A stretch of 45,632 nt of DNA from the NCBI GenBank assembly GCA_021204625.1, contig JAJPZA010000040.1, forward strand, positions 1 through 45,632. Reading direction: 5' to 3'. This document shows, in pieces, positions 21,719 through 37,632 of this stretch. Every line of letters begins with the position of its first letter. Position 1 is the stretch's first letter. A program made the position numbers and the translations under genes. The notes beneath the pieces are model-generated. The model made no database searches. It saw only the letters and a list, made by a program, of their open reading frames with translations, and was not told the origin of the DNA. Source of the DNA: Clostridia bacterium. Lineage in GTDB: Bacteria; Bacillota; Clostridia; Christensenellales; Borkfalkiaceae.

Positions 21719-22987
21719 TCACTTGTTCTCGTCCATCATGTACTGGATTTTCCTGGCTCTTTCCAGAGCCTTCTCATGGCCTTGGTTGGCTGCCTGGATG
21801 TAGAAATGCATGGCAGTGTCAAGGTCTTCCTCCACGCCGTCTCCGGTCTCGTAGCAAAGGCCCAGATAGTACTGCCCTTCAGCGCTTCCCCTGCGGGCGG
21901 CCTCCTTGAACCACTTCACACCCTCCTCCGGATTGCGCGGCATAAGCCTTCCCTGCATGAAATAGAAGCCGTACTCCGCCATGGCGTCCGGGATGCCGGC
22001 CTTGGCGGCCTTTTCAAACCATCTGAAGGCCACGGGCTCGCTCTTTTTTACTCCTATGCCGCTCATATAGCAAAGGCCAAGGGAATACTCGGCCGGCGGG
22101 AAACCTTGTTTTGCGGACATCTCAAAGTAGCGGACGGCCTCCTTTTCGTTTATCTCGCATCCGTTGCCGGTCATAAGGCACGTGCCGGCCCTGTACTGAG
22201 ACTGGGCCAGTCCGAGGTCTGCGGATTTTTTGCTGTACTCAAAGGCTTTGGAAAGGTCTTTTTCAACTCCGTATCCGCTGCCGTAACATGTCGCAAGGCA
22301 GTACATTGCCACTGCGTTTCCCTGCTCCGCGGAAAGGGTGTACCACTTCACGGATTCCTCATAGTCCTGCACTGTTCCCTGTCCGGTGCTGAGGCAGTAT
22401 CCCAGCTCGTTCTGCGCCCTCTGGTCTCCGCTCAAAGCAGCCTGGCGGAAAAGGTCCACGGCCTTCTCCTGGTCTTTCTCAACTCCCTTTCCGTTGAAAT
22501 ACAGCTGCGCGAGGTTGTACTGCGCGTCCGGATACCCCTGCTCCGCGGATTTGGCATACCACCGTGCGGCTGCGGCGCAGTCTTGCCTGCATCCCAGCCC
22601 GTTCTCATACATTAAGCCAAGCATGTCCTGCGCAGGAGGCTCTCCTCCCTCCACAGACATGGAAAGCCACCTGAAGGCCTCGTCATAATTCCTTTGCAGA
22701 TAGTTCCCGTCTATGTACATGCCGGCAAGGCTGTACTGGGCGGCATGGCTGCCGGCCTCCGCGGCCTTTTTTAGCCACTTGCATCCTTCCCTGTTGTTGA
22801 CGCCTGTTCCTACTCCGTACAGATGGCATTCCGCAAGGAAGCACATCTTGTCCGGGTCCCCGTCATTTGCGCCCTTCAGCGCGTCCTCATATGCATCCTC
22901 CGGAGATGCATATCCCTTGCATAATGACTCCCTTATGCCCTTGAACATCTCTTCCTGGCTGCTGTAGCTCTCGTAATCTCCGTCCAT
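21719..22987 (-). CDS. Sel1-repeat protein, 422 aa
   Basis: The protein is built of about ten Sel1-like repeats of ~36 residues, for example AAEAGSHAAQYSLAGMYIDG and SAEQGYPDAQYNLAQLYFNG. These form paired helices that usually act as protein-interaction scaffolds. The start is well defined by AAAGGAG 6 nt upstream. There is no signal peptide, in contrast to secreted Sel1 proteins such as Legionella EnhC, so it is probably cytosolic. It is a close paralogue of the 422-aa protein at 26884-28152: same length, collinear repeats and a near-identical FEMSAKQGFPPAE block. It lies 16 nt behind the small-family gene at 23004 and was probably co-transcribed with it from the promoter at 23470-23498. Its partner is unknown. 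Confidence 0.88.
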   Translation of the reverse strand: MDGDYESYSSQEEMFKGIRESLCKGYASPEDAYEDALKGANDGDPDKMCFLAECHLYGVGTGVNNREGCKWLKKAAEAGSHAAQYSLAGMYIDGNYLQRNYDEAFRWLSMSVEGGEPPAQDMLGLMYENGLGCRQDCAAAARWYAKSAEQGYPDAQYNLAQLYFNGKGVEKDQEKAVDLFRQAALSGDQRAQNELGYCLSTGQGTVQDYEESVKWYTLSAEQGNAVAMYCLATCYGSGYGVEKDLSKAFEYSKKSADLGLAQSQYRAGTCLMTGNGCEINEKEAVRYFEMSAKQGFPPAEYSLGLCYMSGIGVKKSEPVAFRWFEKAAKAGIPDAMAEYGFYFMQGRLMPRNPEEGVKWFKEAARRGSAEGQYYLGLCYETGDGVEEDLDTAMHFYIQAANQGHEKALERARKIQYMMDENK

Positions 22988-23003
22988 AAATCACTCCTTT
23001 GCA

Positions 23004-23435
23004 TCATGCCCCTGTGCCGCCGTCTGCGGACTGGTTTTTCCGGCTGAGCTCAAATATCTTTTTCATGCAAACATTGCGGAATGGGTCTTCATCATCCAGG
23101 CTTAAAAACAGATGGAACCAGTCCCCCGAGCTAAGCTCTCCTCTCTCCTTAAGCTTGATCTGGTATTTCGCCTCTTCCCTAAGATCCAAATTCAGAACCT
23201 GGTCGTAGTGCCTGTACACAAACTTCCAGTCTTCCAGAGACATCCTGCCGCAGATGTCATATATCTCGGCCATGCATTCCGCCGTCTCTTTCTCCGTGGT
23301 CTCAAAGGCGTCCACATACAGCTTGAGCACCAGGAACCACCTGGACAGATCCGTAGGCGCATCCTTGTACCAGCACTCCCAGGCAGTGTCGTGAAAGTCC
23401 TGCCACACATCGTCCGTTATCTTCTGCCGGTCCAT
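23004..23435 (-). CDS. Unnamed small acidic protein, 143 aa, paralogue of the gene at 33626
   Basis: I do not recognise a named family. The ATG at 23435 is chosen because AAGGAG lies 6 nt upstream and a good promoter covers the sequence around a longer upstream reading frame. It shares clear blocks with the product of 33626-34087: EKE.AEC.AE.YD...RMS..DW near the middle, L.E.GELS..DW, and DPFR.VC..K..ELS at the end. Both copies are coupled to a Sel1-repeat gene, here 16 nt upstream of one and at 33626 directly downstream of one. The family may therefore be a partner of Sel1 proteins. It is Trp/Tyr/Asp-rich, soluble and probably helical. No catalytic motif is visible. Confidence 0.75.
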   Translation of the reverse strand: MDRQKITDDVWQDFHDTAWECWYKDAPTDLSRWFLVLKLYVDAFETTEKETAECMAEIYDICGRMSLEDWKFVYRHYDQVLNLDLREEAKYQIKLKERGELSSGDWFHLFLSLDDEDPFRNVCMKKIFELSRKNQSADGGTGA

Positions 23436-23469
23436 ACATTCTCCTTTTCCCTTTCTCTCTTGCGCCAAT

Positions 23470-23498
23470 ATTATACAGCCTGTTTGGCGCCCGCGCAA
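23470..23498 (-). promoter_or_regulatory. Promoter of the 143-aa / 422-aa Sel1 operon
   Basis: On the minus strand TTGCGC (23498-23493) and TATAAT (23475-23470) are separated by 17 nt. The 143-aa start is at 23435. This supports the shorter start for that gene. Confidence 0.65.
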
Positions 23499-23592
23499 GG
23501 TGCCCGGAATCGGATGTAAATCTTCTTTAACACCCCGGAAATCCCGCTCATCCGTGAGAGTCTGTTCATGCCCGGCAGGGCAAAATAGAAAG

Positions 23593-23618
23593 ACGCCGGA
23601 GCCCGGCTGCTCTGGCGC
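23593..23618 (-). terminator. Terminator after the 148-aa gene
   Basis: On the minus strand GCGCCAGAGC pairs with GCTCCGGCGT (one mismatch, one G-U) across a 6-nt loop and is followed by TTTCTATTTTG. It is about 55 nt past the stop codon at 23673. Confidence 0.6.
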
Positions 23619-23672: not shown

Positions 23673-24119
23673 TCACTGTCTGGAGGCAAGCTCCTTGGCA
23701 AACCGCTTGAGATATTTGCGGCCTCCCATGGAGAATTTGTACTGGCCATAGATTACGGAGACGGCCAGCATGAGTGTCTTCTTCCCGGACTGTTCGTCCA
23801 GGGCCTCAAGAATGTCTCCCATGACACGGAAGACCTTGCGCAGGCCATCTTTGCCCTCCTTGCGGAGCTTGTCCTTAACTGCGTTGTAGTCGTTGCCCTC
23901 GCCGAAGATACGCTCCAGCATGGGACGCATTACAAGGTAGTCCATCTCCCTCGTGAGGCAGGAGCCGATAAGAAACTCGCAGAATACATACGGCGCACTG
24001 TACCCTGCGGGAAGCTCATTTATCTTCTCCATCACATCGTCCGCCGTGTCCAGGATATCGGCCCTTGCGTACTTGTCCAGCCTGTCATATTCCGCTGTCA
24101 CATCATTGAGATTTATCAT
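23673..24119 (-). CDS. Hypothetical protein, 148 aa
   Basis: I do not recognise this family. The start at 24119 has AAGGGGG 5-6 nt upstream, which is a good ribosome binding site. The protein is soluble, alpha-helical in character and mixed in charge, with a Lys/Arg-rich end (GGRKYLKRFAKELASRQ). A middle section (RPMLERIFGEGNDYNAVKDKL) gives no catalytic pattern. It is followed by its own terminator and so appears to be a single-gene unit within the Sel1 cluster. Confidence 0.65.
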   Translation of the reverse strand: MINLNDVTAEYDRLDKYARADILDTADDVMEKINELPAGYSAPYVFCEFLIGSCLTREMDYLVMRPMLERIFGEGNDYNAVKDKLRKEGKDGLRKVFRVMGDILEALDEQSGKKTLMLAVSVIYGQYKFSMGGRKYLKRFAKELASRQ

Positions 24120-24310
24120 GTTGCCCCCTTTGTATGGCTGTTTTGTATGCCTTTCTCATATGTCCGCGCACAGCCCTTGTGCGGCCGTTGGAGGCCATGA
24201 GGGAATGTTGCGGGAACAGGTCTGCCTGCGTCTGTGTGATTCTGCATGAGTTTGCATAGGCCTGTATGAAGTCCGCAGGAAACTGCTGCCGGATCACATC
24301 CTTGTCCGTG

Positions 24311-25039
24311 TCAGAGCGGAAGGTCTTTTTTTACGAAGCGCACGGAGCCTGCTATATAGCCTATTATACCAATGATTAGAAGAATTGTCATCTTCCAGAT
24401 GAAAGTTGTTGCCAAATCTATGATGGAAACCGCATCAAAAAGGGATATGACAGACACGTAGTTGAAGAAGTTCAGAGATGTGAGCCGGATTATGGACGGG
24501 ATCACAGGCGAGCCGAACAGTCCCAGCATGGCGGCCACGAGTGCGAAGATGCTAAGCCCTCCGCCAACAGCCATAGAGCGTTTGGAGCGGTCAAAGAAGC
24601 ATGAGGTCGCAAAGCACAGGCCGGAAAGGGTGAACAGAACCAGGAAGGCTCCGAGGTTCAAAAGGAGCAGCTGGCCGTATGTGAGTTCCACGTCTATGCA
24701 TGCCAGGCATATGAGGCCCGTTATGGTTGTGCAAAGAAACATGGCGAACAGGGAGCCAATGAGGAATACTGCCTGCGTGAGGGCAACTTACCCGGGGATG
24801 TATCCCACACGGGAAAGAATCTCGTCATATCTTGCGAACGTCGGCTTGCCGAATATGCACGTCTGCCCGCTCCCCGGCCTGGAGAATCCCAGAAGATGCT
24901 GGATAGTTGTGGATTTTCCCGCGCCGTTGGGGCCTAAGAATCCGAAGACCTCTCCTTCGTCCACGTGGAAACAGACGTCAAAGACTCCGCGCCCGGAGCC
25001 GTAATCCTTTGTGAGATGATCCACTTTAATAACTTCCAT
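24311..25039 (-). pseudogene. Decayed ABC exporter: ATPase N-terminus joined to permease C-terminus
   Basis: From the ATG at 25039 (SD AAGGAG) the frame encodes the first ~83 residues of an ABC ATPase. It has Walker A GPNGAGKST and continues to RVGYIPG, where intact relatives go on to the Q-loop, signature and Walker B regions. A TAA at 24788-24790 follows. The same frame then continues without a break (VALTQAVFLIGSLFAMFLC...) into the last ~155 residues of an ABC-2 type permease with about four hydrophobic helices, ending KKDLPL at 24311. Thus one internal deletion seems to have removed the rest of the ATPase gene and the permease N-terminus. Neither piece can form a transporter. Downstream, 24120-24310 holds no gene I can support. 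Confidence 0.85.
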
Positions 25040-25245: not shown

Positions 25246-25818
25246 ATGAAAGCACGTAATCTCAACGTCTCATCCTATAAGACGCGCCAGCTTATCCGCA
25301 AGACATTCGCCGAGATGCTCTGCGAAAAGGGCGAGATAAGCAAGATAACGGTCACGGAGCTCGTGAAAAGGGCCAACATAAACAGGGGCACCTTCTATTC
25401 CCATTATGATGACATCTATGCCGTTCTGACCGATTACGAGGACGAGCTCGTTGAGAAGTTCTTCTCCGGTTTTGAGCTCATCACCACGGACTTTGAGCAG
25501 TTCGCGGACGCCATCTTCGCATTCATGGAACGGAATGACAAATTGTACAAGCTGCTCTGCTCCTCCAACGAATCCGTCTCCTTTGCAACCAAGCTCACGG
25601 CCATGGCAGAAGACAAGCTCCTTGAGATCTGCTACACAACGCCGGAGCTCACGGACAAGACTTTCCTGGACCTTGAGATAAACATCTTCTGCGAAGGCCT
25701 CATCTACGAATACTTCAAATACTGCCGGGGAGCATCCTCCGTCACCTTAAAGGACCTGCGCGAATACATAAGCGTCTGGTACAGGGACTTCATGCGCCGC
25801 CGCACCAAGGCCGCTTAA
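25246..25818 (+). CDS. TetR/AcrR-family transcriptional regulator, 190 aa
   Basis: The N-terminal ~60 residues form a TetR-type helix-turn-helix: RKTFAEMLCEKGEISKITVTELVKRANINRGTFYSHYDD, with the recognition helix around INRGTFYSHY. The rest is an all-helical ligand/dimer domain (~65-190) that resembles TetR regulators of the kind seen next to ABC-2 exporters. It is intact and divergent from the ABC transporter, whose genes have decayed. Two near-identical palindromes in the shared upstream region are its probable operators, implying autorepression. The start has an AGAGG site about 7 nt upstream. It is the only complete plus-strand gene between 1 and 41 kb that I support. Confidence 0.88.
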   Translation: MKARNLNVSSYKTRQLIRKTFAEMLCEKGEISKITVTELVKRANINRGTFYSHYDDIYAVLTDYEDELVEKFFSGFELITTDFEQFADAIFAFMERNDKLYKLLCSSNESVSFATKLTAMAEDKLLEICYTTPELTDKTFLDLEINIFCEGLIYEYFKYCRGASSVTLKDLREYISVWYRDFMRRRTKAA

Positions 25819-25928: not shown

Positions 25929-26840
25929 TTACCTTTCATCATCGGTGAACTCAAGCAGATCACGGAGTTCATCCATGTTGTACGGCTCATCATTGGTGCC
26001 GCCGGAGACAAAAGGCTGGACAGGGTCTTTGCGGCTGTCTTCCTCGTCAAAGATTCCCAGATACTGAATGTCGTTCCTGTAGTCCACCTTGAGTGACCAG
26101 CTTAAGACCCCGTGCATGCTGAATGAATCAAAGTGGTCGAATGTGTCATCCAGTTCCGGGCTTGGTTTGGCTGAATATGACTTTTTCCACCTGCCAATTG
26201 CCATATCGGACATGCCTTCCAGTGTGGTCTCTCTCTGATACCTCTCATCGTAATACTTAGTTCCGCCTATAACTCTGGCTTTCCTTGTTTCGAGCATTTT
26301 TTTCCGGAGCGTCTTCAGATTCTCCAGCTGCACATCTGCCGGCATAGTTGACACTTTGTCCTGCAGTGCCTGGTATGAATGGAAGAGCTCATCATCCAGC
26401 GTCACTTCCCCGGCGTTTCTCTCGAACCGGAATGTAACCAAAGGATTAACAGAGAAATCCGCCGTATATTCGCAGGACTTCAAAACCCCGTCTTTCCGGT
26501 ATTCCTTCGTGTAGGTAATCCGCATGATCCTGCTTATATTGGACACAAACTGCATATCACGGCAATCCGATCTGGTGTACACCTTCCGTCTGTGTTCCTC
26601 GTCATCTCCAAACCGTCTCAGATATTCCTGGATTGACGCTTCAAGATACTCCCATGAGCAACTCAATTGCGTTTCGAGACTCGGGTGCGTCTGCTTCAAT
26701 ATTCCTGTACCGTCGCCATGCTTTATGACATGCTTAAGTCTGGATATTTGACTGCGGAGGTTTTTAATAGCCTTGAGAACGCCCTCTTCATCTTTGCTGT
26801 CAATAAAGCACTCTACATACTGATCAGATGTAATCATCAT
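25929..26840 (-). CDS. Hypothetical protein, 303 aa
   Basis: I do not recognise a family. The gene begins with two adjacent ATGs (26840 and 26837), with GGAG roughly 12-15 nt upstream. It lies 43 nt downstream of the Sel1 gene at 26884, on the same strand and probably in the same transcript. Residues ~20-85 look coiled-coil or helical (ISRLKHVIKHGDG, YLEASIQEYLRRF). The centre has an EYTADFSVNPLVTFRFERN strand-like block. The C-terminal third is acidic with many aromatic residues (DDTFDHFDSFSMHG, YLGIFDEEDS). No signal peptide, membrane helix or catalytic motif is visible. Confidence 0.7.
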   Translation of the reverse strand: MMITSDQYVECFIDSKDEEGVLKAIKNLRSQISRLKHVIKHGDGTGILKQTHPSLETQLSCSWEYLEASIQEYLRRFGDDEEHRRKVYTRSDCRDMQFVSNISRIMRITYTKEYRKDGVLKSCEYTADFSVNPLVTFRFERNAGEVTLDDELFHSYQALQDKVSTMPADVQLENLKTLRKKMLETRKARVIGGTKYYDERYQRETTLEGMSDMAIGRWKKSYSAKPSPELDDTFDHFDSFSMHGVLSWSLKVDYRNDIQYLGIFDEEDSRKDPVQPFVSGGTNDEPYNMDELRDLLEFTDDER

Positions 26841-26883: not shown

Positions 26884-28152
26884 TCACTTGTTTCCGCTCA
26901 TCCACTGCTGGAGCATCTTTGCTCTCTTCTGGGCATTTGCATGGCCCTGCTGCGCGGCCCGCATGTAGTACTGCAGTGCGGCATTGAGGTCCTGCTCCAC
27001 ACCGTCACCCGACTCATAGCACATGCCGAGGTAGTACTGGCCTTCGGCGTTGCCTTTGCCGGCGGCGCGGCTGAACCACTTCACCCCTTCCTGCGGGTTG
27101 CGTGGCACTATCTGTCCCTGCATGAAATAGAAGCCGTACTCTGCCATGGCATCCGGAATGCCTGCCTGGGCGGCTCTTTCAAACCATTTGAAAGCTATGC
27201 GCTCATCGGCCTGTACGCCAATTCCGCTCATATAGCAGAAGGCAAGGGAGTTCTCGGCGGGAGGGAAACCCTGTTTTGCGGACATCTCAAAGTAGCGTAC
27301 TGCCTCACCGGGGTTCCTTTCGCATCCGGCGCCTCTGAGATAGCTTAGGCCGGCGCTGTACTGCGCGGGAGGATATCCAAGGTCAGCGGACCTCGTGCAG
27401 CACTCAATGGCCTTGGCAGGATCCCGTTCCACTCCGAGTCCGCCGCTGTAACAGGAAGCAAGGCTGTACAAGGCTACAGCATTGCCCTGCTCCGCGGACA
27501 TGCTGAACCATTTGAAAGCTTCGCCGTAATCCTGCGCAGTGCCCTGTCCGGAGCCATAACAGTACCCTACCTCATTCTGGGCCCTGCTGTCCCCGCTCTC
27601 CGCAGCTTTTCTGTACAGTTCAAAAGCTTTCTTTTGGTCTTTTGCAACACCGCTGCCGTTGAAGTACATCTGGCCTAAGCTGAACTCCGCATCCGGATAG
27701 CCCTGCTCAGCGGCTTTGGCATACAGATCCGCAGCTTTGGCAAGATCCTGCTTGCATCCAATGCCGTTCTCATACATGGTGCCAAGAGTGTAATACGCCG
27801 GAGGGGCTCCGCCCTCCACAGACTTCGTGAGCCATTTGAAGGCTTCGTCATAGTCTCTTTCAATGCATATGCCGTCTATGTACATGCTGGCAAGACTGTA
27901 CTGCGCTGCATTGCTGCCTGCTTCCGCAGCCTTTCTAAGCCACCTGACCCCTTCATCATTGTCTATGTCCGTGCCTATGCCGTACAGATAGCATTCCGCG
28001 AGGAAACAAATCTTGTCCGGTATACCGGCATTGGCGCCTTCCAAAGCATTGGCGTATGCCGCCTCAGGGGAGTCAAATCCTTTGCACAATTCTTTCCTGA
28101 CTCCCTTAAGCATCTCTTCACGGCCAGTGAAACGCATATTCTTGCCTTCCAT
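26884..28152 (-). CDS. Sel1-repeat protein, 422 aa, paralogue of the gene at 21719
   Basis: The ATG at 28152 is chosen over one 10 codons upstream because AAAGGAG lies 7 nt before it; this also gives exactly the 422-aa length of its paralogue. About ten Sel1 repeats fill the protein, e.g. AAEAGSNAAQYSLASMYIDG, AAEQGYPDAEFSLGQMYFNG and CYMSGIGVQADERIAFKWF. Similarity to the other copy is collinear throughout, indicating duplication of a whole gene. It is cytosolic by lack of a signal. It follows the HIRAN-like gene after a 144-nt gap with a hairpin, and precedes the 303-aa hypothetical gene. Confidence 0.88.
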   Translation of the reverse strand: MEGKNMRFTGREEMLKGVRKELCKGFDSPEAAYANALEGANAGIPDKICFLAECYLYGIGTDIDNDEGVRWLRKAAEAGSNAAQYSLASMYIDGICIERDYDEAFKWLTKSVEGGAPPAYYTLGTMYENGIGCKQDLAKAADLYAKAAEQGYPDAEFSLGQMYFNGSGVAKDQKKAFELYRKAAESGDSRAQNEVGYCYGSGQGTAQDYGEAFKWFSMSAEQGNAVALYSLASCYSGGLGVERDPAKAIECCTRSADLGYPPAQYSAGLSYLRGAGCERNPGEAVRYFEMSAKQGFPPAENSLAFCYMSGIGVQADERIAFKWFERAAQAGIPDAMAEYGFYFMQGQIVPRNPQEGVKWFSRAAGKGNAEGQYYLGMCYESGDGVEQDLNAALQYYMRAAQQGHANAQKRAKMLQQWMSGNK

Positions 28153-28188
28153 ATCAAATCTCCTTTGCCTATCATGATACAAGCGTTT

Positions 28189-28296: not shown

Positions 28297-28692
28297 TCAG
28301 TAATCCTTCATTGTCACGGAAATGCGGACAAAAGGCTCGTCATGGGCCATGCCCTTGCGGACAACTTTGCAGTACAGTTCCTTTCCGGCGTCCAGGATGC
28401 GGGAGAAAATCTCCTCATCGAATTCGCCGACTTCTCCCAGTGGAAGTCCGGAATTTGTGCAGCAGATGGTCATGAACTCGTCATAAAGAGCCTTTTCATG
28501 ACGGAGGGAAACCTCGTCTCCCTCCCTGAGGGATGCGAGGGCTGCTGCGTCCGCTCGCTTGCCGACATTGTACAGGTACAGGTCCTTGAGATACACATCC
28601 TTTTTGAGGGGCTTCAGAAGATCCACATCCTTGCCCTTGGCTGTTGCAATCTCTATTGTTCCGGCCGGTACAGGTATGATATCGCTTGACAT
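28297..28692 (-). CDS. HIRAN-domain-like protein, 131 aa
   Basis: Residues ~35-130 fit the HIRAN pattern: a start strand (LKDLYLYNVGKRADAAALASL), LREGDEVSLRHE, a G-LPLGEVGEFDEEIFSRILDAGKELYCKVVRKG block and a final strand PFVRISVTMKDY. HIRAN domains bind DNA ends (as in HLTF) and in bacteria often occur alone or with helicases. This assignment is from pattern, not from a search. The start is 1 nt beyond the stop of the J-domain gene, with its ribosome binding site (GGAGG) inside that gene, so the two are translationally linked. It is the third gene of the tight 30804-28297 unit. Confidence 0.55.
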   Translation of the reverse strand: MSSDIIPVPAGTIEIATAKGKDVDLLKPLKKDVYLKDLYLYNVGKRADAAALASLREGDEVSLRHEKALYDEFMTICCTNSGLPLGEVGEFDEEIFSRILDAGKELYCKVVRKGMAHDEPFVRISVTMKDY

Positions 28693-28693: not shown

Positions 28694-29497
28694 TCAGTTC
28701 AAAACCTCCGTGATTTCAAATTCTGCGAACCTGGCCTTGAGGGTCTCAAGATATGTCTTAAGGTCCTCTATCTCTTCCTTGAACTCCTCCGTGGCGTCCT
28801 CTATGGCCTCATCGCTGTCCAGGACGTCCTTGTAACGGTACGGGTTGCTGGTTATGATTGAGTCTATCTCTTCCTTCAGGGCCTTGATCTTGCCTGCAAG
28901 ATACTGCTCGTCTATGTCCTTGTCCTTTGTGGGCTCCTCCTTGAGAAGGTCCAGAACGAGGACCTTGGTCTCCATGATATCGTCCAGGTCATTTCTCTCG
29001 TATGCGTCCTTGGCGCGCTCCCACAAATCTTTCATGGCCCTGGAGAACTCCTGCCCGGGATGCATGTCCGGATGTATCATGAGGGCTATCTCCTTGTATA
29101 TGCGCTTCACCTTGAGCCTGTCCGCTTCAGGAATGGTGTCCGTCTTCATCTCCGAGACAGCCTTTATGTTCTCCAGCTGCTCATAGTATCCGTTAATCTC
29201 TTCCTCTATGCTTGCCGCGAGCTGGTCCGCATATATGGGCTCATTCCTGTTGAGACAGGCCTGGCAGTAGCTTATGGATTTCTTATACTTCACGCACTCT
29301 ATCCTTAGTGCGAAGCGCTCCTGTATAAGCTCTCCGAACTTCCGTATGTAGGCAAGCTGTATCTGCTCCTCTTCCTTTCTAAGACGGTCTCTCTTCAGAA
29401 CCAGCGTGCGGAACTGGTCCGTTGCGGACTCCTGCAAAGCGCCGTCTTCCTCCGGCACTATCTCATCATTGTAGACTATGTCCAATTCTCTTTTCAT
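28694..29497 (-). CDS. J-domain-like coiled-coil protein, 267 aa
   Basis: The centre (about residues 125-175) looks like a J domain: LKVKRIYKEIALMIHPD with HPD at 142-144, then a helix LWERAKDAYERNDLDDI. In DnaJ proteins HPD stimulates the ATPase of Hsp70. The flanks are long charged helices typical of coiled coils: residues ~30-70 (KRDRLRKEEEQIQ) and ~195-260 (KIKALKEEID, EEFKEEIEDLKTYLETLKARF). No Gly/Phe or zinc-finger region is present, so it is a specialised J protein. Its ATG overlaps the stop of the 436-aa gene by 4 nt, and the HIRAN-like gene follows after 1 nt. No Hsp70 gene is in the window. Confidence 0.75.
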   Translation of the reverse strand: MKRELDIVYNDEIVPEEDGALQESATDQFRTLVLKRDRLRKEEEQIQLAYIRKFGELIQERFALRIECVKYKKSISYCQACLNRNEPIYADQLAASIEEEINGYYEQLENIKAVSEMKTDTIPEADRLKVKRIYKEIALMIHPDMHPGQEFSRAMKDLWERAKDAYERNDLDDIMETKVLVLDLLKEEPTKDKDIDEQYLAGKIKALKEEIDSIITSNPYRYKDVLDSDEAIEDATEEFKEEIEDLKTYLETLKARFAEFEITEVLN

Positions 29498-30804
29498 GAT
29501 GCTGCATCCTCCATATGTATGTGTTTTATATCGTTTGCATAAACCCTCATGGGCTTCCCGTCTATTTCCGCCCTGTTCATGAAATCCGCAGGGTCCCTGT
29601 AATACTGCCCTTCATATGCCACTATAATCTCTCCGTCTCTTTCCACAGTCTCCGCCGTGTGCTTCTTTCCTTGAACCGTGAAAGAAACTTTTCCGGGTTT
29701 CTGCAGAATGAGCAGCAGGTCCGCGAGCCGCCTTTTGGACTTTGCGAAGGGTTTCAAGGCATACATCTGCTCCACGCATTTTATGTCTGTCTCCGTAACT
29801 GTTGCCCCGTGAGCCCATACATGCTCCAGACCGTCCACGATAATTGAGACGGCTTTCAGGGCGTCCTTTGTGTTGCCGCTGGCCTGTCCGGCTCTGGAGA
29901 GTTCCAGAAGGGCTTCGGCTATGGTTGGCAGATAGTAATCACTCACATCCGTTACTGCGTAATAATCCTGCAGAAGGAGCCGCTTGCATTCCTCATAATC
30001 CTTCTCCACATAGCGTCCGTCCCTGTACATGAAAGCAAGCTTGTACATAGCCAGGACATGTCCTCTGTATGCCGCAAAACGGTAATACTCATATGCCTTT
30101 TCATAATCCGGCTCTCCGAGGTAGCCGTCGTTCATAATGTCCCCGGCATAATCCGCATACACGGGATTGGAAGGGTTGTCCCGGAAAAGACTGAGAATAT
30201 CCTCATACTTTTTCTGTGAATCCAGAATATTTGCAATAAGCATATTCATGCCGTATGCACTGGTGTTTGCATATGTGCTCATCATTACAGACCAGTATTC
30301 CGGGAACTTCTCATCCCCCGGCATGAGATGCATGTTGTCCAGGACAAATCTCCCGGCCTTTTTCATCTCCTCCGTCTCCTCATATTCAGCGGCATCGGAG
30401 AAGAACTCCTCGGTTATGTCTTTCCATGCATCCAGATTTCCGGGCAGCCTGTCTTCCCCGCAAACCAAGGAAAGGGTTTCCAGCATCTCCTCATGGCTCA
30501 TGGTTTTGAGGAAGGCCTTGCCGTCCTCAAAGGGATTATCCGATTCAGTGGCCACTATAACATCATACCTGTACATGTCCTCAAAGTTGAGGCAGGGGGC
30601 AGTGCAGACGCACAATATGCCTCTTTCGCTCTCCTCTATGTTCACGTAAATTTTGTATCCGTCATAACCCACCACTCTGGCTGCCTCGCGCATAATCTCT
30701 GCAAGGGTTGAATCATGCCTTATTTTGTTAAAGGCCGGAGATGATACGGCCTGCAGTGTGTAATATCTCTCTTCATCAACAAGGACGATGCTTGCAAGTT
30801 TCAT
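29494..30804 (-). CDS. Sel1-like repeat protein with unnamed C-terminal domain, paralogue A, 436 aa
   Basis: This is one of three tandem paralogues (with 30928 and 32271). The N-terminal ~110 residues form a conserved unknown domain (VLVDEERYYTLQAVSSPAFN, KIYVNIEESERGILCVCTAP). Residues ~160-330 are helical, with Sel1-type repeats such as DYEKAYEYYRFAAYRGHVLAMYK. Residues ~370-425 form a compact domain with the pattern GK.H.AE.V...G.I.VAYEGQYY.DP..FMNRAEIDGKP. A good ribosome binding site (AAGGGG) supports the start. The stop overlaps the start of the J-domain gene (ATGA), so the two are coupled. No signal peptide. The function is unknown; a scaffold or adaptor role is inferred from the repeats. 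Confidence 0.8.
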   Translation of the reverse strand: MKLASIVLVDEERYYTLQAVSSPAFNKIRHDSTLAEIMREAARVVGYDGYKIYVNIEESERGILCVCTAPCLNFEDMYRYDVIVATESDNPFEDGKAFLKTMSHEEMLETLSLVCGEDRLPGNLDAWKDITEEFFSDAAEYEETEEMKKAGRFVLDNMHLMPGDEKFPEYWSVMMSTYANTSAYGMNMLIANILDSQKKYEDILSLFRDNPSNPVYADYAGDIMNDGYLGEPDYEKAYEYYRFAAYRGHVLAMYKLAFMYRDGRYVEKDYEECKRLLLQDYYAVTDVSDYYLPTIAEALLELSRAGQASGNTKDALKAVSIIVDGLEHVWAHGATVTETDIKCVEQMYALKPFAKSKRRLADLLLILQKPGKVSFTVQGKKHTAETVERDGEIIVAYEGQYYRDPADFMNRAEIDGKPMRVYANDIKHIHMEDAAS

Positions 30805-30927: not shown

Positions 30928-32247
30928 TTATACAACAACTTCCATACGCTGCAGCTCTTTCACGTATGATTTTACAGGCTTTTCATCTATCTCCGCCCTG
31001 TTAATGAACTGGACGGGGTCTTTGTAATACTGCCCTTCATACGCCACTATGACTTCTCCGCCGCTCTCCAAGGCCTCTGCCGTGTGCTTCTTGCCGCGGA
31101 TGGTGAACCGGACCTTGCAGGGCTTTTGCAGGATGTACAGGAAATCCGCAAGCCTTCTCTTCGATTTGGCAAAGGGCTTCAAGCTGTACATCTGCTCCAT
31201 GCATTTCACATCCGTCTTTGAGACGCCGGCCCCGTGGATCCATGCGTTTTCATTGCTGTCCGCAATGAGTGAGATGGCCTTCAGTGCGTCCTTTGCGTTG
31301 CCGCAGGCCTGCCCGGCTCTGGAAAGCTCCAGCATGGTATCCGCAATAACAGGCAGATACTGCTTGCCGCACTCCAGGACTTTGTTGTATCCCTCCAGGA
31401 GAAGCCGCTTGTATTCATTGTAATCCTTCTTCACGCCAAGACCGTCCCGGTACATAATGGCCAGTCTGCAATAGGCGCGCACTTCACCCCTGTATACGGC
31501 AAAACGGTAATACTCAAAGGCCTTTGCATAGTCCGGCTCACCGGTGAATCCGTTGAAAAGGACTTCTGCCGCATAGTATGCATACACCGGGTCTGCCTGG
31601 TACTGCCGGAATATGCGCAGGATTGTCTCATACCGGCCATGGGACCACAGCGGATCCATTATGGAATTGCTGATTGTAATTGAATATGTGTCCATGTACT
31701 TATCCCGCGCCAAGGACCAGTATGCCGGGAAAAAATCCTCCTCTGTATATGCAAACCCTTTGTGCCTTATAATCCTTGAGGCCCTCTTCTCTTCTTCCGT
31801 CTTCTTATCTTCATCGTCATCGTCATCGCCGCTGAAGTACACATCCGAAAAGTCCCTCCATGCATCCAGGTCTTCCGGCAGCCTGTCTTCATTGCAGACC
31901 AGGGAAAAGGTCTCCTGCATCTTTTCACGGCTCATTGTTGTGATGTACGCTTTGCTGTCCTCATACGGGTCATCCGGTTCTGTGACCACCACAACGTCAT
32001 ACATGTACATTTTTGAAAATTTATCGGAAAGAGCTGTGCATATGCAGCCTATTCCTGTCTCGCTCTCCTCTATATTCACACGAATGACATACAGGTCATA
32101 TGCAGCCATGCCGGCTGCCTCATTCATAATCTTCGCAAAGACAGCATCATGCTTTTTCCTGTTAAAGGCCGGGGATGACACCGCCTGCAGTTTGTAACAT
32201 GACTCATCCCCCACTATGACCGTGCTGTTCAGCCTTATGCCCTTCAT
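30928..32247 (-). CDS. Sel1-like repeat protein with unnamed C-terminal domain, paralogue B, 439 aa
   Basis: It is the closest relative of the 436-aa protein along the whole length: LQAVSSPAFNRKKHDAVFAK, VNIEESETGIGCICTA, LVCNEDRLPEDLDAW and SLKPFAKSKRRLADFLYIL all have direct counterparts. The difference is an acidic insert (DDDDDEDKKTEEEK) near residues 133-147. The C-terminal domain is the same (GKKHTAEALESGGEVIVAYE, YKDPVQFINRAEI). GGGAGG lies 10 nt upstream of the start, and the gene follows paralogue C after 23 nt. The 123-nt gap to paralogue A has no obvious terminator. A recent tandem duplication produced A and B. Confidence 0.8.
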   Translation of the reverse strand: MKGIRLNSTVIVGDESCYKLQAVSSPAFNRKKHDAVFAKIMNEAAGMAAYDLYVIRVNIEESETGIGCICTALSDKFSKMYMYDVVVVTEPDDPYEDSKAYITTMSREKMQETFSLVCNEDRLPEDLDAWRDFSDVYFSGDDDDDEDKKTEEEKRASRIIRHKGFAYTEEDFFPAYWSLARDKYMDTYSITISNSIMDPLWSHGRYETILRIFRQYQADPVYAYYAAEVLFNGFTGEPDYAKAFEYYRFAVYRGEVRAYCRLAIMYRDGLGVKKDYNEYKRLLLEGYNKVLECGKQYLPVIADTMLELSRAGQACGNAKDALKAISLIADSNENAWIHGAGVSKTDVKCMEQMYSLKPFAKSKRRLADFLYILQKPCKVRFTIRGKKHTAEALESGGEVIVAYEGQYYKDPVQFINRAEIDEKPVKSYVKELQRMEVVV

Positions 32248-32270: not shown

Positions 32271-33554
32271 TCATTCCTTAAGCACTTTCATGCTCTCCAT
32301 ATCAAGCTCACGGATGAGCTTGTTCCCGGCCACAGCCGTGTTCATGAAGCTTACGGGGTCCCGGAAATACTTGCCGTCATACTTCACAAGAATATCCTTC
32401 CCGTCCTGCACGGCCTCTATCCCGTATTCCTTTCCGTCTGCGGTGAGCAGGACACTGCACGGAGATTTAAGCAGCACGAGAAGGTCTGCAATCTCATGCT
32501 TGTCCTCCGGCATGACGTACACCTTGTACAGCATGTCCGCAAGCTTAGCATCCGTACCGTTCACAGGAATTCCGTACGGCCAAAGGCTCATGGAAGAGCT
32601 GAGGCCTTGTATAAGCGCCTCGCCGGCTTTTTCCGGCTCACCGTCCTCAAGATACACCTTGGCTATCTCCGGGATGGCATAGTTTATGCATACCATGGCG
32701 CAGGCCCCGCCGGCAGAGATAAACTCCTCGTATATGCTGAGCACCAGGGATCTGTACGTGTCAAAATCCTTTTCCACGCACATCCCGTCCCGGTACATTT
32801 CCGCCAGGGCAAGGCGTGCGGCGAGATATCCGCGCTCGCTTGCGAACTTGTAATATTCATATGCCTTCTTCCTGTTTCTGCGTCCGATGTACCCGTTCAG
32901 CTCTATATCACCAGCCGCTTTGGCGAAGACTGGGTCATACGGATACCTTTCCGCGAACTCCAGGATCTTTGCGAAATCCTTCTCCCACAGCTCCCCGACT
33001 ATCTCTTTGCTGTATCCGGGATTGGGGTCATAATCCATTATGGCCCCTAAAGCCTGCCAGTACTCCGGGAACAGGGAGCTGTTCCCTACATTGCCGTTCA
33101 TATAATGGGAAATGATACCTGAAAGCCTCCGTTTCTCTTCGTCATCCTTTATAATGCCGTATTCCGAGTCCACAGACTCCTTGCTGGGACATTTCGCCAG
33201 ATTCCAAGGCAAACCGCCAACATCCAGAAAATTCCTTATCATGCAGAAAGTTTCATATCTGTCTCCAGCATACACATATGCCATTGAGGAACCATCCTTC
33301 TGCCGTATATGCAACTCCATATGGAAGAGATCTGTTTTCCCTAAACGCCTGTCATTGTATACACGAACGGAGCAGACTTTCCCAGCAGGAACATCCCCCA
33401 TTCGAAGGACCATCTCGTCCCCGTCATATGCCGTCATGTGCTTTATACCATCATATGCTTGACACATGAATTCCTCATAAGCTTCATCACTGTAGATCTC
33501 CGGCTTACTGTACTCTTTCTGCTCTCCCAAAAGAATGTCATCCGCAAATATCAT
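32271..33554 (-). CDS. Sel1-like repeat protein with unnamed C-terminal domain, paralogue C, 427 aa
   Basis: This is the most diverged of the three paralogues. The N-terminal ~130 residues differ in sequence (VLRMGDVPAGKVCSVRVYND, FHMELHIRQKDGSS). The centre keeps the Sel1-type block (RRNRKKAYEYYKFASERGYL), and the end keeps the shared domain (GKEYGIEAVQDGKDILVKYD, YFRDPVSFMNTA). AGGAGG 7 nt upstream fixes the start. It follows the 153-aa small-family gene after 71 nt and heads the row C-B-A-J-HIRAN. It is soluble, with no catalytic motif. Confidence 0.78.
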   Translation of the reverse strand: MIFADDILLGEQKEYSKPEIYSDEAYEEFMCQAYDGIKHMTAYDGDEMVLRMGDVPAGKVCSVRVYNDRRLGKTDLFHMELHIRQKDGSSMAYVYAGDRYETFCMIRNFLDVGGLPWNLAKCPSKESVDSEYGIIKDDEEKRRLSGIISHYMNGNVGNSSLFPEYWQALGAIMDYDPNPGYSKEIVGELWEKDFAKILEFAERYPYDPVFAKAAGDIELNGYIGRRNRKKAYEYYKFASERGYLAARLALAEMYRDGMCVEKDFDTYRSLVLSIYEEFISAGGACAMVCINYAIPEIAKVYLEDGEPEKAGEALIQGLSSSMSLWPYGIPVNGTDAKLADMLYKVYVMPEDKHEIADLLVLLKSPCSVLLTADGKEYGIEAVQDGKDILVKYDGKYFRDPVSFMNTAVAGNKLIRELDMESMKVLKE

Positions 33555-33625: not shown

Positions 33626-34087
33626 TTACTGTCCGTCTTCCGGCTGGACAGCATTGGAATCCTCTTGACTGGAGCTTCCCTCCTGCTGGCCGCTGAGTTC
33701 TTTGACCTTCTGCAGGCAGACTTCGCGGAAGGGATCCTTAATGCCTACGTAGTGAGTAAGCCATTCCCAGTCCCACAAGCTCAGCTCTCCGGTCTCAGCC
33801 AGCTTTTTGCGCCGGCTGGATATAGCTTTCAGCGGATTATTGGCGCAATACTTGTTTATGTGCTCCCAGTCTTTCCCGGACATCCTGTCCTGTACATCAT
33901 AAAACTCCGCAAGACATTCCGCTTCCTTTTCTATTTCCGTTTCTATAAATAAGGAATACCAAGACAAGTAAAACGAGAGCGCCCAGTATCTTTTGGACAG
34001 AGTCGATGGAGCTGTTGCATACACATGGCACCAGCATGAATTCCCGCAGAAATACTTTACTGCATGCTGTATCTTCGCTTCATCCAT
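33626..34087 (-). CDS. Unnamed small protein, 153 aa, paralogue of the gene at 23004
   Basis: The ATG at 34087 begins 1 nt after the TGA of the 895-aa Sel1 gene (34089-34091), implying translational coupling; a longer frame reading back into that gene is less likely. It shares EKEAECLAEFYDVQDRMSGKDW, AETGELSLWDW and DPFREVCLQKVKELS-type blocks with the 143-aa protein at 23004. It has an extra Gln/Ser-rich tail (GQQEGSSSQEDSNAVQPEDGQ). The N-terminus is rich in Cys and Trp (YFCGNSCWCHVYATAP). The family is unnamed as far as I know. Its repeated pairing with Sel1 genes is the main clue to its role. Confidence 0.75.
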   Translation of the reverse strand: MDEAKIQHAVKYFCGNSCWCHVYATAPSTLSKRYWALSFYLSWYSLFIETEIEKEAECLAEFYDVQDRMSGKDWEHINKYCANNPLKAISSRRKKLAETGELSLWDWEWLTHYVGIKDPFREVCLQKVKELSGQQEGSSSQEDSNAVQPEDGQ

Positions 34088-34088
34088 A

Positions 34089-36776
34089 TCATTTCTTTCC
34101 CCCAGCCTTGGCTGCCTTTGCAAGAGTCTTCAATTTCTCTTTGGAGTCCATATATCCATCGCTAGCGGCAATCTCCATGTACTTGATTGCCTGCTTCGTG
34201 TTCTTCCTTGTACCGACGCCTTCCATGTAGCATTTGGCAAGATTGTATGCGCCAATTATGCTGCCGTCATCCGCAGCCTTGTGCAGCCATTTGAATGCCT
34301 CATCCGGATTTGCATCCATTCCGGTGCCGTCTATAAGCAGCACGCCCATCACAGCCTCTGCGTTAGGATACCCCTGCCTGGCGGACTGCGAAATCCAGAA
34401 CGCCCCCTGGGTCTCATTCCTTATTTTGCTGTCTCCGTAAAGGAAATTCATTCCAATCTCATACTGGCATCCGGGCTCCCTCAGCTTCAAACCGTTCATG
34501 AACCACTTTTTGGCCTCATCCTGGTTATTCTGCGCGCTCTTGGGATTGCTGTATATCACTCCGAGATGGTAATTTGCTTCCGGAACATCATCCGCAGACT
34601 GCGTGTAATATTCTATAGCCTTGGCTATGTTCTTTCTTGTCCCAATCCCGTTCTCATAGCAAAGTCCAAGCGCATACGCTGCCGGCTTGAAGCCTTTTTT
34701 GGCGGCAAGCTTGTACAGGCGGACGGCCTCCTGCTTGTTCTCCTCAACGCCCTCACCTTTTTCATACAATTGACCCATGTAGAAGACGGCAGGATCAAAT
34801 CCTTTGTCCGCAGCCTGCTTGAATAACTTGAATGCCTTCTTCAGGTTCTTCTTGACACCGGTCCCGCCATAATAGCACTGGGCCAGCCTTGTCATGCATC
34901 CCGGGCTTCCGGCGTCCGCACCCTTTTCAAAGCACCTGAATGCCTCATCGTAATCCTGCTTAATGCCTCTTCCCTGTATAAAGATCATGCCTGCTTCCGC
35001 ATACGCATCCGCAAGGCCGGCCTCAGCAGCCCACATAAAAAGCATCAGGGCATCCGCATCTTTATTCTCGGATTCAAGCATTCCTTCACGGTAGCAGTTG
35101 GCAAGGTACATGCAGGCCTGGGGGTGTCTCTTGTTTGCTGCATCATGAAGCCAGACCATCCCCTGCATGGTCTTGTCCATATCCTTCTCCACTCCGTCTC
35201 CGTCATAATAACGCATGTAACGGATGCCCATTTCATACTGCATATCCGTATCTCCTGCATCCGCAGCGCGCACGTAATACTCCTCCGCCTTGTCCGGATC
35301 TTTTTCTACAAAGTTGCTGTCTTCATCTTCATAAAGAGTGCCAAGCACCCTGAGACCCCAGGCGCTCCCGCCGTCCGCAGCCTTTTCTATCCATTCCAGC
35401 CCCTTCTGCGTATCCGGCTCCACTCCGCTTTCCCCGAACAGGTAATACAGGCCGTAACGGACCATTGCCTTCAGATTTCCGGCCATGGCATACTGCTCAC
35501 AGACTGCAAAATCATCCAGTTCGTCATCATCCGGGTCTTCGTCTTCGCCGTCTTCCTCCTCATCTTCGTTGGCTACATCATCTTCATCGTCTTCTACGCC
35601 TTCGGCATCTTCGGCTTCCTTATCTTCGTCTCCGGAATCTTCATCTTCGACGTCTTCGTATTCGGAATCCTCAACTTCTTCTTTGTCTTCGTCGTCAGAA
35701 TCCCCGTCTTCGACGTCTTCTGCATTTGTATCAAAAAGCATGGGCAACAGCTTTTTCATCTGCAAGGCCTGCGGATTTCCCTGTTCGAGCGCCATTGAGA
35801 TATACTCCATGGCCTTTTTACGGTCACGTTCAGTTCCCGTGCCATTCAGGAAGTAAAGGCCGGCCAAAAGCTGTGCATCCGAGTCTCCGTCTGCCGCTGC
35901 ATCCACGTAATACTCAAGCGCTTTCGCTTCATCCATCTCAACCCCTATGCCTCTGGAATAGAAGGTGCCGGCCTTCACCTTGGCAAGGGTGTTTCCCATG
36001 AATGCCGCCCTTTTGTAAAGGTCCAAAACCTGCTTGGGATCGACTTCACCTTCGTCCATCCCGCTTTCAAGCACCAGTCCAAGATTGTACAAGGCTATGG
36101 GACTCATTTTATCTGCGCCTTGTGTAAGCCAATTAAAAGCTTCTTCCGGGTTCTGTTCGGTTCCGTCCCCGTTCATAAGACATGCGCCAAGCATACCCAT
36201 TGCCTCGCCGTACCCCTTCTCTGCGGCCTTCCTGTACAGCTCCACGGCCTTTGCATGGTCTTCCTCAAAGCCTGTGCCGTTGTAATAGCAATCCGCGAGG
36301 AAATACATGGACTCCTCATCCCCCTGGTCCGCAGCCTTTGTGAACCATTCTATTGCCTTCTCCATGTCCTGCTCCACGCCGTCTCCGTCTTTGTAGCAGA
36401 TTGCAATCTGGTTCTGCGCAGAGACATCCCCGGCTTCCGCACATCTCATCATCCACTTGAATCCCTTCTGAGGATCCTTCTCACAGTTGGTTCCGCGCTG
36501 GTATCCGTACGCCAGTTTTCTCATTGCCTCAACATATCCGGACTCCGCCGTCTCTGTGAGAATCTTCATGCCTTGCACTTCGTCCTTGTCCGTTCCCACG
36601 CCATAAAAATAGCAGTCCGCCAACAGAAGCTTTTTATCCGGGTCTCCTGCGGCAGCACCTTCCCGGGCTGCCTTGAAAGCCTCACCATATGAGGCATACC
36701 CCTGCGCCACCTTGTCCTTGATCTTCTTATTGATAAGATCCACATCTATGAAATCCTTGAAATCATCGAGATTCAT
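34089..36776 (-). CDS. Large two-block Sel1-repeat protein with acidic linker, 895 aa
   Basis: I prefer the ATG at 36776 (AAAGG 9 nt upstream) over the one at 36785, which sits on the ribosome binding site. Residues ~30-335 hold a first block of Sel1 repeats (ADCYFYGVGTDKDEVQGMKI, ADQGDEESMYFLADCYYNG). Residues ~345-425 form a very acidic low-complexity linker of Asp/Glu with few other residues. Residues ~430-890 hold a second, longer Sel1 block (AADKGFDPAVFYMGQLYEKG, SADDVPEANYHLGVIYS). There is no signal peptide or membrane helix. The gene heads the Sel1 cluster, with a promoter and palindrome just upstream, and is coupled to the 153-aa gene. It is probably a cytosolic scaffold. The acidic linker could mimic nucleic acid or bind basic partners, which is speculation. 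Confidence 0.87.
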   Translation of the reverse strand: MNLDDFKDFIDVDLINKKIKDKVAQGYASYGEAFKAAREGAAAGDPDKKLLLADCYFYGVGTDKDEVQGMKILTETAESGYVEAMRKLAYGYQRGTNCEKDPQKGFKWMMRCAEAGDVSAQNQIAICYKDGDGVEQDMEKAIEWFTKAADQGDEESMYFLADCYYNGTGFEEDHAKAVELYRKAAEKGYGEAMGMLGACLMNGDGTEQNPEEAFNWLTQGADKMSPIALYNLGLVLESGMDEGEVDPKQVLDLYKRAAFMGNTLAKVKAGTFYSRGIGVEMDEAKALEYYVDAAADGDSDAQLLAGLYFLNGTGTERDRKKAMEYISMALEQGNPQALQMKKLLPMLFDTNAEDVEDGDSDDEDKEEVEDSEYEDVEDEDSGDEDKEAEDAEGVEDDEDDVANEDEEEDGEDEDPDDDELDDFAVCEQYAMAGNLKAMVRYGLYYLFGESGVEPDTQKGLEWIEKAADGGSAWGLRVLGTLYEDEDSNFVEKDPDKAEEYYVRAADAGDTDMQYEMGIRYMRYYDGDGVEKDMDKTMQGMVWLHDAANKRHPQACMYLANCYREGMLESENKDADALMLFMWAAEAGLADAYAEAGMIFIQGRGIKQDYDEAFRCFEKGADAGSPGCMTRLAQCYYGGTGVKKNLKKAFKLFKQAADKGFDPAVFYMGQLYEKGEGVEENKQEAVRLYKLAAKKGFKPAAYALGLCYENGIGTRKNIAKAIEYYTQSADDVPEANYHLGVIYSNPKSAQNNQDEAKKWFMNGLKLREPGCQYEIGMNFLYGDSKIRNETQGAFWISQSARQGYPNAEAVMGVLLIDGTGMDANPDEAFKWLHKAADDGSIIGAYNLAKCYMEGVGTRKNTKQAIKYMEIAASDGYMDSKEKLKTLAKAAKAGGKK

Positions 36777-36823
36777 AATCTCCATCCTTTGCTCTTGTGA
36801 GGTTAAATTTCCTTTACGCCAAT

Positions 36824-36852
36824 AGTGTAAAGTAAAATCATAAATCCTGCAA
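36824..36852 (-). promoter_or_regulatory. Probable promoter of the Sel1 cluster
   Basis: On the minus strand TTGCAG (36852-36847) and TACACT (36829-36824) are 17 nt apart, upstream of the 895-aa gene. Both boxes are imperfect. Confidence 0.45.
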
Positions 36853-36860
36853 TGAAGGTA

Positions 36861-36878
36861 TGTTAAATATACTTAACA
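36861..36878. promoter_or_regulatory. Palindrome next to the Sel1 cluster promoter
   Basis: TGTTAAATATACTTAACA has perfect 6-bp arms (TGTTAA/TTAACA) and ends 8-9 bp from the putative -35 box. It is a candidate activator or repressor site. The half-site matches that of the palindrome at 13941, though the spacing differs. Confidence 0.4.
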
Positions 36879-37233
36879 GTCTACAGGTTTCTGTCTTATA
36901 ACCCAAAATATCTGCGCTATAACACGGGCCTTGGACAGGATGATAATCCAATGTTAGCGGCCCGCTTGAAAGTTCACCTCCCAAGACTTTAGTTAGTACA
37001 AGTACAACAACACAAAGCAGAAACACACGGCAGTATCATGAAAACAAAATCCTCCGTACATCCATGCGGAAGCGTTTGCATTTATTCACAACAGCAAAAT
37101 CCCGGCACAAACAAAAGGCCCGGAGACGGTCCGGGCCTGGATTACATATGCAGTTTTTGCTGGGTGGTTAATTTTACTGTCTGCAGCGGCGGAAACATCC
37201 TCTGTCTCCATATAACAGCTAGGCTGGAACGGA
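36877..37233. other. Gene-free gap between the Sel1 cluster and the 132-aa gene
   Basis: No convincing gene. A 62-codon frame (36838-37026) overlaps the promoter region and lacks a ribosome binding site. The gap contains the terminator at 37112-37137. Confidence 0.6.
37112..37137 (-). terminator. Intrinsic terminator after the 132-aa gene
   Basis: GGCCCGGA (37117-37124) pairs perfectly with TCCGGGCC (37130-37137) around a 5-nt loop. On the minus strand it is followed by TTTTGTTTG. It is about 100 nt past the stop codon at 37234. Confidence 0.8.
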
Positions 37234-37632
37234 TTAACCCGTGAAATTATCGCTGTTTCCGGAGGGAATCCAGGCCTTGTAAAACGTAACGCTCAAAGAT
37301 ATCTGCCCGTCTTCACAGGTTGATATCTCAACCGTATCAGCAAGAGCCAAAGAGTCGCAGAATTCTTTCACCGAACTGATCTTGATGATGCTTGTCTTAA
37401 TCTTCAGATTGAAAGCCGTTCCAAGCAGCTGATCAACGCCGACTGCAACCTCAGCATATGGATCCTGCTCTTTAATGAGATTGGCTATTTTCAATACAGC
37501 CTTTTTGATTGCAGGAAACCTGTCCGGGTTTTCCATCAGGCAATGATTATCCGGCATGCACTTTGAAACCAGATCAATCATGCTCTCAATTGGATCTTTC
37601 CCTCTCCAGTTTTCGAAATCCTTTCTGTTCAT
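37234..37632 (-). CDS. Hypothetical protein, 132 aa
   Basis: I do not recognise a family. The start at 37632 is backed by GAGGGAG 3 nt upstream. The N-terminal half is helical (DPIESMIDLVSKCM, FPAIKKAVLKIANLIKEQD). The C-terminal half alternates strands (VAVGVDQLLGTAFNLKIKTS, GQISLSVTFYKAW). It is soluble. It has its own terminator and lies between the Sel1 cluster and the TOTE-type gene without being tightly linked to either. Confidence 0.6.
   Translation of the reverse strand: MNRKDFENWRGKDPIESMIDLVSKCMPDNHCLMENPDRFPAIKKAVLKIANLIKEQDPYAEVAVGVDQLLGTAFNLKIKTSIIKISSVKEFCDSLALADTVEISTCEDGQISLSVTFYKAWIPSGNSDNFTG

Follow-up and report, generated by a model that had tools for sequence, protein, structure and literature searches.

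Do the Sel1-repeat, J-domain, and HIRAN-like genes that lie packed together in a Borkfalkiaceae genome belong to one unit, and is that unit part of the defence repertoire? The stretch of DNA analysed here, called the window, comprises 45,632 nt of Clostridia bacterium (Borkfalkiaceae; assembly GCA_021204625.1, contig JAJPZA010000040.1, forward strand). It holds a packed minus-strand gene set running from position 36785 down to 21719, which an earlier note had described as six cytosolic Sel1-type proteins coupled to a J-domain protein and a HIRAN-like protein inside a defence-like island. Three of these genes, encoding the Sel1 protein SelA, the J-domain protein (J), and the HIRAN-fold protein (HIRAN), recur in this order in many other genomes as an accessory cassette. 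Our preferred, though tentative, reading is that the cassette encodes a dedicated Hsp70 co-chaperone module.

The SelA and J reading frames overlap by 4 nt, and those of J and HIRAN are 1 nt apart, in agreement with the tight coupling previously reported for the window. In a family survey of 201 genomes, J was present in seven, including the window's own, and a SelA relative adjoins J in all seven. A scan of named genome contigs returned 26 loci, labelled as Clostridia, Clostridiales, Lachnospiraceae, Erysipelotrichaceae, Bacillota, Bacilli, Mollicutes, and Bacteroidales metagenome-assembled genomes, with one Desulfovibrio (L067). Class-wide, a strong J match (E below 1e-19) was found in 29 of 391 genomes, one of them the window's own; HIRAN lies beside J in 20 of the other 28, and five of these 20 also have SelA. 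The order SelA-J-HIRAN is complete in 45 of 49 loci chosen as Sel1-type candidates, the incomplete ones being L062, L100, L207, and L219; the 45 include the near-identical L043 and L044, both counted, as well as L099 and L209, where SelA is reduced to a fragment of 89 and 120 amino acids, respectively. HIRAN directly adjoins J in 42 of 46 loci (SelA in 26), and in 41 of 50 loci of a second set that has genomes in common with the first. The four HIRAN-less loci among the 46 comprise an apparently ordinary one (L067), one near a contig edge (L105), and two distant ones (L116 and L117). The cassette thus recurs widely as an ordered unit, and the many SelA-J-HIRAN loci contradict the possibility, raised in advance, that the genes never co-occur elsewhere. 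Loci L090-L095, L116, and L117 come from one genus with genomes of 4.4-4.9 Mb, in which the J relative has no adjacent HIRAN; at L116 and L117, two related proteins of 573-607 amino acids lie beside it.

The J protein also occurs with HIRAN in a two-gene form without Sel1; of 7998 candidates scored against J of this form, at least 1427 are relatives at E 1e-20, counted irrespective of HIRAN adjacency. The Sel1-type triad spans genomes labelled as Clostridia, Erysipelotrichaceae, Bacilli, and Mollicutes, and the two-gene form reaches Bacteroidales. The cassette is accessory and not core: within one genus, J is patchy, being found in 25 of 78 genomes. Pairwise distances of SelA, J, and HIRAN correlate (Mantel r of 0.56, 0.66, and 0.82; none of 2000 permutations was as high). 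As expected, the co-variation of the three proteins fits a unit that is inherited together; shared ancestry alone would give the same pattern. In a concatenated phylogeny calculated with FastTree, the label of one genus needs 4 changes, compared to a mean of 14.9 and a minimum of 10 for shuffled labels, and the 20 members of this genus fall into a clade of 31. The tree points to some transfer or old paralogy, but not to rampant transfer.

One flank gene, for a GGDEF protein, is present in 17 of 78 genomes. In one genus, at least two neighbour genes are common to only 9 of 231 locus pairs. Between species of the window's genus, however, the arrangement of genes upstream of a core gene differs as well; low synteny is therefore not usable as evidence for mobility.

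The J protein of the window matches DnaJ with E 0.0026 and 18.3 bits against a cut-off of 27.8, that is, below the PF00226 threshold. Its identification is upheld by its relatives: all 24 aligned J members have the HPD motif, and DnaJ is matched at E 0.01 by 21 of them; L067, also among the 24, resembles an ordinary DnaJ-like protein. The HIRAN-like protein of the window has no Pfam match. The predicted structure agrees with the HIRAN fold, which upholds the assignment to HIRAN made from the window alone. PF08797 is matched at E 0.01 by 18 of the 23 aligned members, though not by the window copy. The model of SelA contains an alpha/beta domain (approximately residues 1-120), a Sel1/TPR solenoid (approximately 140-360), and a C-terminal beta domain (approximately 370-432), with borders taken from the predicted structure; the matches in a fold search of SelA against the PDB covered mainly residues 140-409. 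The N-terminal domain is found in the window's family group and is absent from shorter relatives of about 300 amino acids.

In HIRAN domains, a signature loop of the N-K-F-D-x-N-A-I kind matters for DNA contact. Among the 12 HIRAN proteins of the J-HIRAN group that lacks Sel1, conservation is strong (mean column identity, 69%), and the consensus contains REPDN-x-YDP-x-AI and GYVP. The loop is looser in the Sel1 type and is gone in the window's family group.

The reading as a co-chaperone module is based on co-occurrence, gene order, co-variation, the predicted folds of SelA and HIRAN, the HPD motif, and the one genomic Hsp70 match. It also fits the tendency of all three proteins to be acidic (median isoelectric points of 5.5, 4.9, and 4.9) and the lack of any nuclease, NTPase, or toxin domain above the Pfam cut-off in the window copies. 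An Hsp70 match is present in 41 of 42 genomes examined. The only one in the window's genome is located on another contig, C179, with none on C96, so the J protein would have to use the general DnaK. Through its HPD motif, J would bring host DnaK to a target. The HIRAN-fold protein would do the aiming; its ancestral targets, as fold and motif suggest, would be DNA ends or single-stranded DNA. The Sel1/TPR protein may act as a scaffold, either holding the client or bringing the complex together. DnaK would then dismantle or refold the nucleoprotein or protein complex at the target. Complex formation, DnaK recruitment, and the nature of the client are predictions. The target has probably changed in the window's lineage, because the scaffold has multiplied and the signature loop has been lost there.

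Several observations weigh against the co-chaperone module. A loose version of the HIRAN loop pattern, composed only after the alignment had been inspected, is matched by 0 of 10 sequences in the window's family group versus 13 of 13 others. Most HIRAN members are acidic. Acidity and loss of the loop pattern together make DNA binding less likely in the window's family group. In genome G239, whose assembly may be incomplete, J-HIRAN is present, yet no protein matched Hsp70 at E 1e-20. HIRAN does not adjoin J in nine of the 50 loci in the second set (L090-L095, L096, L197, and L076, the last of which stops close to the end of its contig, as seen from the longer copy L105). Finally, five methyltransferase systems lie within 20 kb of J-HIRAN without Sel1, where 1.07 were expected (p = 0.004), which speaks more for a role in conflict.

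This last value comes from a within-genome proximity test on 49 genomes and 88 methyltransferase systems from three families (matches with E no higher than 1e-20, neighbouring ones merged if within 6 kb), in which the expected values disregard contig ends and hence run high. The methyltransferase families and the split by presence of Sel1 were picked after restriction genes beside viral copies had been noticed. Counted under the Sel1 type are G528, where J-HIRAN but no SelA was found, and the g76 genomes, for which flanks were read at 19 loci, 18 of them with SelA and HIRAN. Over all 49 genomes, seven systems lie within 20 kb of J versus 1.75 expected (p = 0.0018); without the window's genome, the values are six versus 1.65 (p = 0.006). 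For the Sel1 type with the window left out, one methyltransferase was seen versus 0.58 expected (p = 0.44), which is no enrichment; within 10 kb and with the window included, none was seen versus 0.34 expected. What is left of the defence reading in the earlier note is weaker: methyltransferases lie near the pair without Sel1 more often than expected, and BREX-, AbiE-, and ThsB-family matches occur among Sel1-type neighbours.

Three IMG/VR contigs carry J-HIRAN: L118, its look-alike L119, and L120. Restriction genes are found beside the pair by Pfam in L118 and L120, and L119 has a layout identical to that of L118. A further viral contig has a Sel1-type cassette in which SelA is truncated where the contig stops. 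In L118 (7945-15502), a UmuC-like polymerase on the opposite strand is followed by J, HIRAN, an M78 peptidase, an Mrr endonuclease, and a type I-like R subunit. A link of the J-HIRAN pair to conflict genes is plausible. Two J queries gave no match in phage or plasmid collections.

These data bear on the possibility that the cassette is a system for conflict with phages or mobile elements, in which HIRAN would sense phage DNA ends or replication intermediates, and J/DnaK together with Sel1 would target a phage complex or protect some host process. The accessory, patchy distribution favours this explanation, as do the methyltransferases near the pair without Sel1, the viral contigs with restriction genes, and a WYL regulator upstream of the triad in L043. 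Bacterial precedents point the same way: bNACHT25 relies on host DnaJ (PMC12169576), and HIRAN occurs in predicted HipIN antitoxins (PMC8262856). In a coarse comparison, 134 of 213 eligible Sel1-type neighbour proteins, picked mostly by nearness and size, were searched with PADLOC; among the matches listed (first 25 families) were BREX-, AbiE-, and ThsB-family as well as WYL matches, with BREX placed by eye at L099 and AbiE at L050. However, these neighbours matched 63 PADLOC families, whereas 124 control proteins, taken from next to a core gene in the window's genus, matched 116; the neighbours thus exhibit no enrichment. PADLOC-DB 2.0.0 returned no family at E 0.001 for J, SelA, HIRAN, or the 303-amino-acid protein encoded downstream, and the window triad contains no nuclease, NTPase, kinase, or toxin domain above the Pfam cut-off. 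Given these results, the lack of methyltransferase enrichment around the Sel1 type, and the J queries unmatched in phages and plasmids, we regard a conflict system as fairly unlikely.

The same neighbourhoods suggest another explanation. The sampled Sel1-type neighbours are largely metabolic or housekeeping genes (thiolase and LPG synthase by Pfam; ProRS-, PTS-, and lipoprotein-like by eye). The cassette could then be a general accessory operon for protein quality control, in which a specialised J protein and its partners would handle misfolded or stress-damaged proteins and the HIRAN fold would serve in protein contact instead of nucleic-acid binding. Sel1 repeats are protein-binding scaffolds, which suits this role, as do the acidic proteins and the loss of the HIRAN loop in the window's clade. 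Neither the strong conservation of the HIRAN signature in the group without Sel1 nor the methyltransferase enrichment in that group agrees with such an operon, and we consider it unlikely. Conservation in housekeeping contexts, which the earlier note had named as grounds against a defence role, applies insofar as the contexts are often ordinary, but the cassette itself is not core.

A toxin-antitoxin-like module, with one protein toxic and another neutralising it, an arrangement proposed for HipA kinases and their HIRAN partners (PMC8262856, PMC11706625), is very improbable. The genes are small and overlapping, and two very weak matches go in this direction: YafO_toxin on SelA residues 9-42 (E 0.073; 13.6 versus 25 bits, below the cut-off) and HEPN_AbiU2 in one J relative (E 0.0069). 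The absence of kinase, nuclease, and toxin domains above the cut-off in the triad argues against it. No HipA-type match was found among the proteins of the window's cluster in Pfam, and the only kinase-named match, CotH on J, is below the cut-off (E 0.049).

The window was also compared with its nearest relative, L042 (J, 76%). The L042 contig starts inside SelC, and the comparison covers only the AlwI side of the window. The window's 2.9 kb AlwI stretch is missing from L042, which has 221 bp instead; the AlwI system is therefore not part of the unit, and a defence island as cause of the window's layout was rejected on this side. Beyond the AlwI stretch lies a core gene of the genus (DUF2229; 40 of 41 genomes), whose upstream side varies between species. 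The claim that the window's type of cassette sits in defence islands was not sustained, given the AlwI insertion, the ordinary neighbours, and the proximity test for the Sel1 type.

L042 contains a single gene that aligns to both SelA and SelB, plus part of SelC. Judging from these sequences, the window's lineage has multiplied the scaffold to A, B, and C plus three more Sel1 proteins. The count of six minus-strand Sel1-type proteins was confirmed, three with strong Pfam Sel1 matches and SelA, SelB, and SelC with weak ones, and so was the tandem paralogy of the latter three. Their cytosolic location is suggested by N-termini judged by eye. In L043 (102-7878), from the same genus, a WYL regulator, SelA, J, HIRAN, a relative of the 303-amino-acid protein, an ADP-ribosylglycohydrolase, an AAA ATPase, and a Sel1 protein lie in one row. 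The window's genome contains more Sel1 genes on other contigs. On contig C135 (L121, 4763-19448), two Sel1 proteins of 391 and 441 amino acids are encoded on the same strand, upstream of a 772-amino-acid protein, an SNF2-like helicase (1073 amino acids), and other uncharacterised genes; pieces of a C5 methylase are found elsewhere on this contig, apart from the Sel1-bearing cluster. Contig C161 (L122, 7811-12109) encodes four tandem Sel1 proteins of about 320 amino acids, for one of which the SelA profile gives the best match.

The features of the cluster are summarized in Table 1.

Table 1. Genes of the window's cluster in order of transcription, and the adjoining AlwI stretch.
Feature	Position	Strand	Remarks
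Long Sel1 protein, 898 amino acids	34089..36785	-	Pfam Sel1 E 3.4e-132
Small unnamed family, copy 2	33626..34123	-	No Pfam match; 34% identical to copy 1
SelC, more distant tandem paralogue	32271..33554	-	Pfam Sel1 E 0.0014, below cut-off; 26% identical to SelA
SelB, tandem paralogue of SelA	30928..32247	-	Pfam Sel1 E 6.1e-7, below cut-off; 55% identical to SelA
SelA	29494..30804	-	Pfam Sel1 E 1.4e-7, just above cut-off
J-domain protein, helical flanks, HPD present	28694..29497	-	
HIRAN-fold protein, signature loop lost in window's clade	28297..28692	-	
Sel1 protein downstream of HIRAN	26884..28182	-	Pfam Sel1 E 3e-96; relative at same place in L042
Unnamed 303-amino-acid protein	25929..26840	-	No Pfam match; relatives beside triad in L042, L043, L044
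Weak TetR-like regulator, divergent	25246..25818	+	TetR_N E 3.4e-5, 24 bits at cut-off of 24
ABC-2 permease-like fragment	24311..24742		Weak match
Unnamed 148-amino-acid protein	23673..24119	-	No Pfam match; relative in L042
Small unnamed family, copy 1	23004..23498	-	No Pfam match; relative in L042
Sel1 protein at cluster 3' end	21719..22987	-	Pfam Sel1 E 3.9e-93
Neighbour stretch outside unit	18843..21718	-	AlwI endonuclease 19037-20743, D12 methylase 20757-21605

With the starts as listed, the long Sel1 gene overlaps small family copy 2 by 35 nt; the listed start of copy 2 is TTG, and the true start is probably a downstream ATG. Both copies of this family adjoin a Sel1 gene, as reported before. 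The Sel1 protein downstream of HIRAN and the one at the 3' end of the cluster (420-430 amino acids) are 65% identical. The region 24146-25234, which holds the ABC-2 permease-like fragment, is about 0.8 kb longer than in L042 and is perhaps an insertion remnant. The flanking systems named in the earlier note were confirmed, with the AlwI endonuclease and D12 methylase on one side, and a TOTE-type AEP-helicase and a C5 methylase on the other; a Vsr protein was also identified. Positions 41444-45436 contain the C5 methylase, a 434-amino-acid protein with a weak PADLOC endonuclease match, a 153-amino-acid protein, and the Vsr nuclease on the opposite strand; the GC content falls to 0.38 at 42-44 kb. 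At the other end of the window, a minus-strand gene (4017-13772) encodes a 3251-amino-acid protein with BspA-type leucine-rich repeats, probably a surface protein; this gene has internal repeats at the DNA level (7326-8144 versus 9897-10727).

A broader proposal, which we regard as quite unlikely in its entirety, is that J-HIRAN is a widespread, undescribed device for delivering Hsp70 to nucleic-acid ends. HIRAN would read broken, stalled, or foreign ends, and J would load DnaK to dismantle the bound complex, which might be a phage replisome, packaging, or recombination complex. A fast-evolving Sel1 scaffold would pick the client in some lineages, and the window would represent an arms-race-like expansion.

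The three-gene unit is kept together across several Bacillota classes, and the window's genome carries an enlarged version of a J-HIRAN-Sel1 cassette that recurs in gut-type bacteria. The unit pairs a chaperone recruiter with a fold of the DNA-end type, and with it one could test whether a dedicated subunit aims Hsp70 at nucleoprotein complexes in bacteria. Should it turn out to act on phages, defence would be achieved by a unit that itself carries neither a nuclease nor a killing domain.

We found no paper describing the J-HIRAN-Sel1 gene set in the openly licensed literature searched, in line with the earlier impression that no known defence system has this composition; within this literature, the component families are familiar and, as far as seen, the combination is undescribed. 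In HLTF and Rad5, HIRAN is part of large helicase proteins, whereas here it is a free small protein. Among the closest known proteins, lp_0118 of Lactobacillus plantarum (3k2y) is listed as uncharacterised. The main text of the CoCoNuT paper mentions HIRAN-like OB folds and Hsp70, but neither DnaJ nor Sel1 (PMC11090510). The extra J proteins of jumbo phages are predicted to recruit host HSP70 (PMC7824862); unlike J of the cassette, they are phage-borne and serve in folding and assembly, and the passage on them names no HIRAN partner. The bNACHT25 pathway of E. coli also depends on a J protein, in that detection of phage coat protein by bNACHT25 requires host DnaJ; this J protein is the chaperone of the host, and the abstract names no HIRAN or Sel1 partner (PMC12169576). 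In the HipIN/HipL and diDNase-HipA-HIRAN operons, HIRAN is proposed to bind DNA ends, with a possible role in phage defence, and the term DnaJ is absent from the main texts of both papers (PMC8262856, PMC11706625). As described there, these operons carry a HipA-type kinase, and none was seen in the triad, but like the cassette they are bacterial operons with a HIRAN protein or domain.

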